NCBI RefSeq assembly: GCF_900537085.1 | Contig: NZ_UNRE01000006.1 | Location: 248,001 to 312,000, forward strand | Direction of reading: 5' to 3' | DNA from: Agarivorans sp. Alg241-V36 | GTDB lineage: Bacteria; Pseudomonadota; Gammaproteobacteria; Enterobacterales; Celerinatantimonadaceae | DNA: 64,000 bases | In this document: positions 36,799 to 37,398 of the stretch, in pieces | Position numbering within the stretch: position 1 is the first letter of the stretch | Layout of the letters: every line of letters begins with the position of its first letter | The notes under the pieces: generated by a model | Told to the model about the DNA's origin: nothing | What the model saw: the letters and a program-made list of their open reading frames with translations, nothing else | Databases searched by the model: none | Made by a program: the position numbers and the translations under genes

Positions 36799-36875
36799 CG
36801 GTGATTAGCGCAGCTTGGTAGCGCATCTGGTTTGGGACCAGAGGGTCGGGAGTTCGAATCTCTCATCACCGACCA
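36799..36875 (+). tRNA. tRNA-Pro (anticodon TGG)
   Basis: A 77-nt cloverleaf: acceptor CGGTGAT with ATCACCG, D-arm GCGC/GCGC, anticodon loop TTTGGGA with TGG at 36833-36835, T-arm CGGGA-GTTCGAA-TCTC with a G-T pair, CCA encoded. Its 3' end is reiterated in the downstream tandem repeat. Confidence 0.97.
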
Positions 36876-36881
36876 CATTCT

Positions 36882-36910
36882 AAAAAGCCTGCTCATTGAG
36901 CAGGCTTTTT
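36882..36910 (+). terminator. Terminator 1 of the tRNA repeat
   Basis: AAAAAGCCTGCTC / GAGCAGGCTTTTT with an ATT centre, directly after the functional tRNA-Pro. Confidence 0.92.
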
Positions 36911-36986
36911 GCTTTCTGCAGGTTGGCGTTAACCAAAAAAGCGGGAGTTCGCCTTTTAACCTTGGCTCATCACTGACCACATTCAG

Positions 36987-37017
36987 AAAGCCCCGTCAGT
37001 TATGACGGGGCTTTTTT
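36987..37017 (+). terminator. Terminator 2 of the tRNA repeat
   Basis: AAAGCCCCGTCA / TGACGGGGCTTT hairpin with a T6 tail; the second sub-unit type. Confidence 0.9.
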
Positions 37018-37084
37018 ATGGCTGAATAATAAGTAAGAGCTGGGAGTTCGCCTTTTAACCTTGGCTCATCACCGACCACATTCT

Positions 37085-37113
37085 AAAAAGCCTGCTTATC
37101 GAGCAGGCTTTTT
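37085..37113 (+). terminator. Terminator 3 of the tRNA repeat
   Basis: Second copy of terminator 1 (AAAAAGCCTGCTTATCGAG then CAGGCTTTTT), with a slightly changed loop. Confidence 0.88.
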
Positions 37114-37189
37114 GCTTTCTGCAGGTTGGCGTTAACCAAGAAAGCGGGAGTTCGCCTTTCGACCTTGGCTCATCACCGGCCAGATTCAG

Positions 37190-37220
37190 AAAGTCCCTTC
37201 AGTCATGGCAGGGCTTTTTT
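37190..37220 (+). terminator. Decayed terminator 4 of the tRNA repeat
   Basis: Copy of terminator 2 with mismatches in the stem (AAGTCCCT against AGGGCTT) but an intact T6 run, showing drift between copies. Confidence 0.6.
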
Positions 37221-37292
37221 ATGGCTGAATAATAAGTAAGAGCTGGGAGTTCGACTATTAACCTTGGCTCATCATCGTGCACATTTAAAAGC

Positions 37293-37316
37293 GCCTGCTC
37301 ATTGAGCAGGCTTTTT
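37293..37316 (+). terminator. Terminator 5 of the tRNA repeat
   Basis: GCCTGCTC-ATT-GAGCAGGC followed by T5; third copy of the terminator 1 type. Confidence 0.88.
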
Positions 37317-37398
37317 GCTTTCTGTTGGTTGACGTTAATCAAGAAGGCGGGAGTTCGCTTTTAAGCTCGACTCATCACGGCCTAACGATAGAAAACGT

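Follow-up and report, generated by a model that had tools for sequence, protein, structure and literature searches.

The window, the whole stretch of 64,000 nucleotides of Agarivorans sp. Alg241-V36 DNA that was analysed here, carries a tRNA operon in which ARAGORN finds tRNA-Arg(CCG), tRNA-His and tRNA-Pro(UGG) in that order. Directly before tRNA-Pro lies an element related to the 5' half of this tRNA, directly after it an array of units related to its 3' half, and beyond the array an open reading frame (ORF) that faces it. The features are listed below; terminator coordinates are approximate, the hairpins are predicted and their energies computed.

36405-36433, plus strand: promoter-like site 5' of the tRNA operon, TTTACA-17-TAATAT, 9 of 12 matches (consensus scan, weak)
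36453-36529, plus strand: tRNA-Arg(CCG) (ARAGORN, Rfam)
36560-36635, plus strand: tRNA-His(GUG) (ARAGORN, Rfam)
36710-36798, plus strand: 5' element, a refolded copy of the tRNA-Pro 5' half, directly before tRNA-Pro (96.4 bits, E 5.5e-19 with model R1, the window copy being among the 21 elements behind that model)
36799-36875, plus strand: tRNA-Pro(UGG) (ARAGORN, Rfam)
36882-36910, plus strand: terminator type 1, directly 3' of tRNA-Pro (-20.3 kcal/mol)
36943-36980, plus strand: TLR-like unit 1 (tRNA-linked repeat; T-arm start, 14-nt non-tRNA middle, acceptor 3' end)
36985-37017, plus strand: terminator type 2 (-23.6 kcal/mol)
37042-37079, plus strand: TLR-like unit 2, last 14 nt of the tRNA exact
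37085-37113, plus strand: terminator type 1 (-18.7 kcal/mol)
37146-37183, plus strand: TLR-like unit 3
about 37188-37218, plus strand: terminator type 2, weakened (-10.6 kcal/mol)
37245-37282, plus strand: TLR-like unit 4
about 37288-37316, plus strand: terminator type 1 (-15.4 kcal/mol)
37349-37380, plus strand: TLR-like unit 5, degraded, without terminator
37399-37752, minus strand: convergent ORF of 117 aa facing the repeat array (mechanical ORF list only)

The scan behind the promoter-like site found three such sites, against 1.0 (sd 1.3) in shuffles. At Rfam gathering thresholds tRNAs alone pass in the window, and the same holds for scans by E-value threshold of the window stretch and eight loci; sub-threshold matches (the Trp leader, the rnk leader and others) were rejected, being below the curated scores and lying mostly over terminator hairpins.

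By eye, the ORF at 34736-36289 begins with two CDGSH-like iron-sulphur motifs followed by a glutamate-synthase/FMN-like domain, and the adjacent ORFs at 37948-38814 and 38944-39828, with similar secreted-looking products, form an apparent tandem paralogue pair. Elsewhere in the genome tRNA arrays are heavily amplified: tRNA-Met(CAU) is present six times at exactly 160-bp spacing (G000:C11:148114-148987), and there are tandem rows of tRNA-Lys, Asn, Arg, Val and Asp. The tRNA-Val(UAC) operon (G000:C2, about 564.2-565.1 kb; L067, minus strand, about 2620-1690) has decayed tandem copies too, namely two pseudo-tRNA-Val 3' of the last gene, with an insert in the anticodon loop and each followed by a copy of the operon terminator.

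The repeat array downstream of tRNA-Pro

The earlier note had described a T-arm start, GGGAGTTCG, recurring six times at 95-104 bp spacing within a period of 203 bp, and both statements hold. The motif stands at 36848 (inside tRNA-Pro), 36943, 37042, 37146, 37245 and 37349, with successive spacings of 95, 99, 104, 99 and 104 bp; a repeat search finds two 203-nt copies that are 93% identical and, in register with them, a partial third one (95 nt, 85%), and TRF reports 36862-37378 with a period of 203, 2.6 copies, 89% matches and a score of 815. The two alternating terminator types that the note had seen are likewise recovered, as a hairpin with a T-run after tRNA-Pro and after units 1-4, and each of units 1-4 lies between two predicted terminator hairpins. 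A consensus terminator scan of 36300-37500 gives three sites against 1.5 (sd 1.1) in shuffles and alone lends no support; its sole array site is 37293-37311, on both strands, because its stem and T rules exclude the other array terminators. The type-1 terminator after tRNA-Pro, an inverted repeat with A and T tracts, is possibly bidirectional.

What had been called a decayed tRNA-Pro tail is indeed tRNA-derived, but it has undergone more than decay: in all five units 13-14 nt (CCTTTTAACCTTGG or a variant) stand where the tRNA has its T-loop AATCT, and unit 2 alone matches the final 14 nt of tRNA-Pro exactly. As far as sequence goes, each unit runs from a split T-arm through an acceptor 3' end into its own intrinsic terminator, the last unit excepted. 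RNAalifold finds no common secondary structure among 40 distinct units. Two candidate features were rejected: a pairing of the unit (GGCTCATCACCG) in antisense with the tRNA-Pro 5' end, with 10 of 11 pairs by eye, is mostly inherent to a copy of the tRNA, and a promoter inside type-2 units (9 of 12 matches in the consensus scan) is, by eye, missing in some relatives.

Conservation and resemblance to tRNA-linked repeats

The comparison set consisted of seven Agarivorans-type genomes, G000 (the window genome, with the window at C6:248001-312000) to G006, each with two tRNA-Pro(UGG) operon ends, or 14 loci. The earlier note had held that absence from sister strains, together with a lack of transcripts beyond the first terminator, would reduce the repeat to a passive local duplication; traces were found in 13 of the 14 loci, and a unit with both halves in 11. 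From G000 to G006 the ccg operons carry 5, 2, 3, 5, 2, 3 and 1 units (seven of seven loci), and the tct operons 5 (plus one decayed), 2 (without tail), 4, 7, 1 (decayed), 1 and 0 (six of seven), units being decayed or absent in some operons (L039, L045, L049). Units are present in the single-contig genomes G001, G002, G003 and G006, so that an assembly artefact is unlikely. On this comparison the array is more than a duplication private to one strain: throughout the genus, and in both tRNA-Pro operons, the unit is conserved, and its copy number turns over. By eye, the ccg operons of relatives have both terminator types, which suggests that the two types are ancestral and that the window's 203-bp dimer arose later by duplication of the pair.

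Among 42 units, identity over a 38-nt box is 0.88 within a locus, 0.76 between species at the same operon and 0.75 between operons (shuffled 0.49), the first 9 nt being alike by construction since they served to locate the units, while the 30 nt upstream of the box reach 0.71, 0.46 and 0.44 (shuffled 0.43). The non-tRNA middle of about 14 nt stands at 0.90, 0.71 and 0.69 (shuffled 0.49), figures that lean upwards, as they were scored on 34 of the 42 units and the eight dropped had an unrecognised tail; by eye, the middle is normal in three of these eight, and the others are decayed. By this measure the box is conserved, its non-tRNA middle included, whereas the upstream flank is not. Gene conversion with the tRNA is able to keep the tRNA-like halves but unable to keep the middle.

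These figures bear on an alternative in which the array is a passive local repeat, a tRNA 3' end with its terminator that was duplicated by slippage or unequal crossing-over, has no function and is maintained through homology to the intact tRNA-Pro. Such an origin would be compatible with a copy number of 0-7, with lineage-specific unit lengths, with a higher identity of units within a locus (0.88) than across species (0.76), with the decayed tandem copies after tRNA-Val in the same genome and with a 175-bp VNTR at rtT RNA listed in a Salmonella table (in the part of PMC2658671 used here). Conservation of the box and its middle across species and operons, next to a flank near the shuffled level, speaks against it, as does the inability of gene conversion to maintain the middle, and on the whole we hold it to be unlikely, if a serious contender. 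That the units are only serial, possibly bidirectional terminators insulating a strong tRNA operon from the convergent gene at 37399-37752 seems to us quite improbable: there are five hairpins with T-runs within 435 bp, the type-1 hairpin, with its A and T tracts, is symmetrical and the convergent ORF comes next, but a conserved tRNA-derived box would be superfluous for terminators, and at -10.6 kcal/mol the second hairpin of type 2 is a decayed one. Integration scars, with the tRNA-Pro 3'-end copies as attachment-site duplicates left by integrative elements, are a very remote prospect, for although tRNA 3' ends are common attachment sites, the units lie about 100 bp apart and nearly all have a terminator, no integrase was recognised by eye among the ORFs at 33-42 kb, and in many species a similar stretch of 12-14 nt splits the T-arm.

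The reading that we prefer sees in the array a relative in kind of the tRNA-linked repeats (TLRs). According to the part of PMC8144298 used here, TLRs have been known in E. coli since 1978, number 22 in ten loci with one to five units each, share 18-19 identical bp with the end of the upstream tRNA or rRNA, and were without known general function as of 2021. As a yardstick, eleven K-12 tRNA operons were scanned for exact 3'-terminal copies of at least 15 nt, which gave 13 TLRs, all of 18-19 nt, in four operons (lysT 5, lysV 1, arg 3, tyr 4); at tyrT-tyrV the exact last 19 nt of tRNA-Tyr occur four times, in repeats of about 178 bp. No TLR of this definition was found in E. coli argX-hisR-leuT-proM, which has the same tRNA order apart from leuT.

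The window units lie directly 3' of tRNA-Pro in a tRNA operon and number five, within the E. coli range (relatives have 0-7, one of them above it), but their best identity is 14 nt and not 18-19 bp. Because they reach only 14 nt, we call the array TLR-like, a variant that by the strict rule falls below full membership. Exact 3'-terminal copies of 19 and 22 nt at the g2 loci and of 21-22 nt at g4, both of sister genera, do come within that rule, and family f11 has copies of up to 26 nt; the g3 locus L056 and three of the four f12 loci had none of at least 9 nt.

The earlier note had compared the locus with tyrT/rtT of E. coli and suggested a convergent or shared origin. The layout and the TLR kind stand: as in E. 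coli, a tandem array lies in a tRNA operon 3' of the tRNA, with units that end in a copy of the tRNA 3' end, and the number of rtT RNA repeats varies in a Salmonella comparison (same part of PMC2658671). A shared origin is not supported, since another tRNA is copied and argX-hisR-leuT-proM shows no TLR. Unlike E. coli TLRs, the units have a sequence of their own, keep the T-arm start and carry an intrinsic terminator each except the last. The rtT (RttR) model of Rfam, presumably RF00391, has no match in the window or the array stretch.

A further parallel is offered by RrA, RrB and RrF, TLR small RNAs described, in the part of PMC8144298 used here, as lying between the dual terminators of three E. 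coli rRNA operons in read-through transcripts, with a 5' end probably made by RNase E and with Hfq and CsrA bound. They share with the array a TLR-type unit between two terminators, a conserved location and a possible read-through transcript; unlike it, they follow 5S rRNA, measure about 173 and 115 nt, bind the two proteins and have a conserved structure, of a kind that RNAalifold did not find among the 40 distinct units. The sponge RNA 3'ETS-leuZ, released by RNase E according to the same source, is likewise a tRNA-operon 3' trailer (glyW-cysT-leuZ), but is single-copy, and no tRNA-end repeat of at least 15 nt was found in that operon. Among the matches listed in open-licence PubMed Central, none described such repeats at tRNA-Pro.

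Related genomes offer a view of how such units may arise. At the g2, g4 and f11 loci the downstream units are longer tRNA-Pro-like copies. Those of f11 (L120, L181, L182), located 3' of tRNA-Pro, have an acceptor, a D-arm, a replaced anticodon arm, a T-arm and a CCA end, several of the full-length ones being followed by a terminator-like hairpin; g4 copies have a hairpin inserted in the T-arm, and Agarivorans units keep mainly the 3' half. This series from full-length through partial copies to 3' halves suggests that the TLR-type units of this group descend from tandem tRNA copies. For E. coli, reading TLRs as degenerate whole tRNAs gives p values of 0.018-0.032 for the four tyrT-locus repeats, which are not independent, and of at least 0.098 for the other nine; as a general statement it was rejected, support being weak and confined to the tyrT locus.

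The element immediately upstream of tRNA-Pro

The earlier note had seen neither the 5' element nor how the array relates to the full-length tRNA-Pro-like copies of related genomes. Like a tRNA (RF00005) or its pseudogenes, the element reproduces, in many relatives, positions 1-29 and 35-48 of tRNA-Pro, the acceptor strand of the window copy being altered relative to tRNA-Pro. Unlike a tRNA, it has the conserved core GCATCGTCGCGAAGCTNATAAAGAG where the anticodon 5' strand would be, no acceptor 3' strand and a predicted pseudoknot between D-loop and tail. Rfam gives it no gathering match in the window and no RF00005 match at its place up to E 1, and none of the matches listed in open-licence PubMed Central described such an element at tRNA-Pro. 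The 7-mer GCGAAGC is common to the core and the E. coli rtT units (L103), possibly by chance. The predicted helices, all on the plus strand, are as follows.

36710-36716 with 36736-36742, plus strand: stem I, outermost pair mismatched in the window
36719-36722 with 36732-36735, plus strand: D-stem, one mismatch in the window
36725-36731 (D-loop) with 36787-36793 (tail), plus strand: pseudoknot, 6 of 7 pairs in the window
36747-36750 with 36756-36759, plus strand: stem III
36766-36771 with 36777-36782, plus strand: stem IV

With 28 elements (alignment A1: 26 from families f1 and f12, two from f11 and f21), RNAalifold returns a helix from the D-loop to the tail just 5' of the tRNA; with 38 elements it chooses stem I and the D-stem instead. 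The predicted pseudoknot is the combined reading of both outcomes, because a nested fold cannot display both. At least six of the seven D-loop/tail pairs form in 34 of the 35 elements of f1 and f12, with a mean of 6.11 Watson-Crick pairs for an element's own D-loop, 4.85 for other D-loops and 4.27 for shuffled tails (200 rounds, highest mean 4.86), the best 7-mer of the 45-nt tail being used in all cases. For f11 and other families, 12 of 22 elements have at least six pairs, 3-37 nt before the tRNA, with no consistent helix; one further row was left out, its D-loop being unrecognisable.

Compensatory change was followed in A1 and in a second alignment, A2, comprising 21 of the 35 f1 and f12 elements, hand-picked for clean alignment and thus leaning towards structure. 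In A1 90.1% of cells are paired, with 28 double-change cells against 7.8 in column shuffles (0 of 500) and 9 in the best slid control; in A2 95.7% are paired, with 24 against 6.7 (0 of 500) and 8. The count of further pair types in A2 shows no excess over shuffles (274 of 500), and a covariation test of our own that takes the tree into account, modelled on R-scape, found no single pair significant. About 4-5 independent double changes have been kept in the helices. In A2, where the expected share of single changes kept is 0.45 (0.37 in A1), the D-loop/tail helix has kept about 2.5 double and 3.4 single changes with 1.5 broken, stem IV 2 double and 12 single with 4 broken, stem III 3 with none broken, and stem I with the D-stem 8 with 6 broken. 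The A1 rows, more divergent and less well aligned, give kept against broken changes of 13.0 and 9.6 (D-loop/tail), 13.0 and 11.6 (stem I with D-stem), 20.7 and 9.3 (stem IV) and 4.9 and 1.1 (stem III). Three single copies folded no better than shuffles in a pseudoknot-free fold (z -0.02, -1.69 and -0.32). We regard the support for the predicted fold as moderate.

The core, with at most three mismatches, occurs in 18 of 394 genomes of the order (f1 10 of 12, f12 4 of 4, f11 4), and a reversed control pattern matched one genome; the f11 match in G153 was rejected as chance, there being no tRNA in its locus. In the window genome there are two core matches, both upstream of tRNA-Pro. Model R1, for which the 21 elements of A2 were the input, matched 39 of the 394 genomes at E <= 1e-4, some weak matches being doubtful: f1 9 of 12, f12 4 of 4, f11 14 of 24, f6 5, f21 3, f15 1, f16 1 and f3 2, of which at least the match in G038 (f3) overlaps a tRNA-Pro match and was discounted. 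The f15 copy (L187) carries a related core. True tRNA-Pro genes score 27.3-35.7 bits against R1 and clear elements 36.8-107, with some by-eye elements lower (L049, 36.7 bits); the ranges touch, and matches near 38 bits are therefore doubtful. A class sample that included a few genomes of the same order gave the window genome as its sole R1 match (1 of 369), weak matches being lost to the stricter filters of the order and class searches, and phage and plasmid records gave none.

Of 67 checked copies, 65 adjoin tRNA-Pro or another copy: 45 lie directly before tRNA-Pro(UGG), 14 precede another copy and 6 follow tRNA-Pro; the other 2 are elsewhere. The 67 copies come from the 68 matches that scored 36.8 bits or more across 51 sources (one was the same place as another); many of these sources had been retrieved by tRNA-Pro similarity, which favours this result. 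Among the R1-retrieved loci that were read, one (L190, at a contig end) had no tRNA-Pro in view.

Joint readings and a proposed mechanism

Taken as a whole, the stretch is best explained, we believe with modest confidence, as a TLR-type array, tandem-duplicated at the end of a tRNA-Pro operon, with processed RNAs between its terminators and a structured upstream spacer. Transcripts passing the first terminator would be stopped stepwise by the later ones, and RNase E would cut after each ACCGACCA copy, leaving short RNAs between terminators in the manner of RrA, RrB and RrF; by this analogy small RNAs between the array terminators are possible. Against the RNA part stands the first terminator, which is predicted to be strong, so that read-through may be small. 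To go by its title, a 2016 paper by Mohanty et al. reportedly links RNase E to the formation of mature 3' ends on proline tRNAs in E. coli.

The 5' element is probably a related but distinct tRNA-Pro-like fold that serves as a structured spacer in the same precursor and helps to separate or process tRNA-Pro. It may be a structured neighbour that promotes processing; in E. coli, RNase E cuts argX-hisR-leuT-proM fragments with the help of neighbouring tRNAs, or even of a terminator hairpin (in the parts of PMC9841416 and PMC3985628 used here). More tentatively, as a possibility to which we would give somewhat less than even credence, the element may be a new pseudoknotted cis-acting family derived from tRNA-Pro, with the downstream TLR-like units descended from full-length tRNA-Pro-like copies of the same kind; it would then lie immediately 5' of tRNA-Pro(UGG) in several families and act in cis on the maturation of the tRNA-Pro precursor, and TLRs would be seen arising, in this group, from refolded tRNA duplicates.

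The clade has the TLR kind on another tRNA and in graded forms, full-length copies with a CCA end, partial copies and 3' halves only, and these graded forms let their origin be followed. As the 5' element is kept across families, a role for it in tRNA-Pro processing is directly testable.
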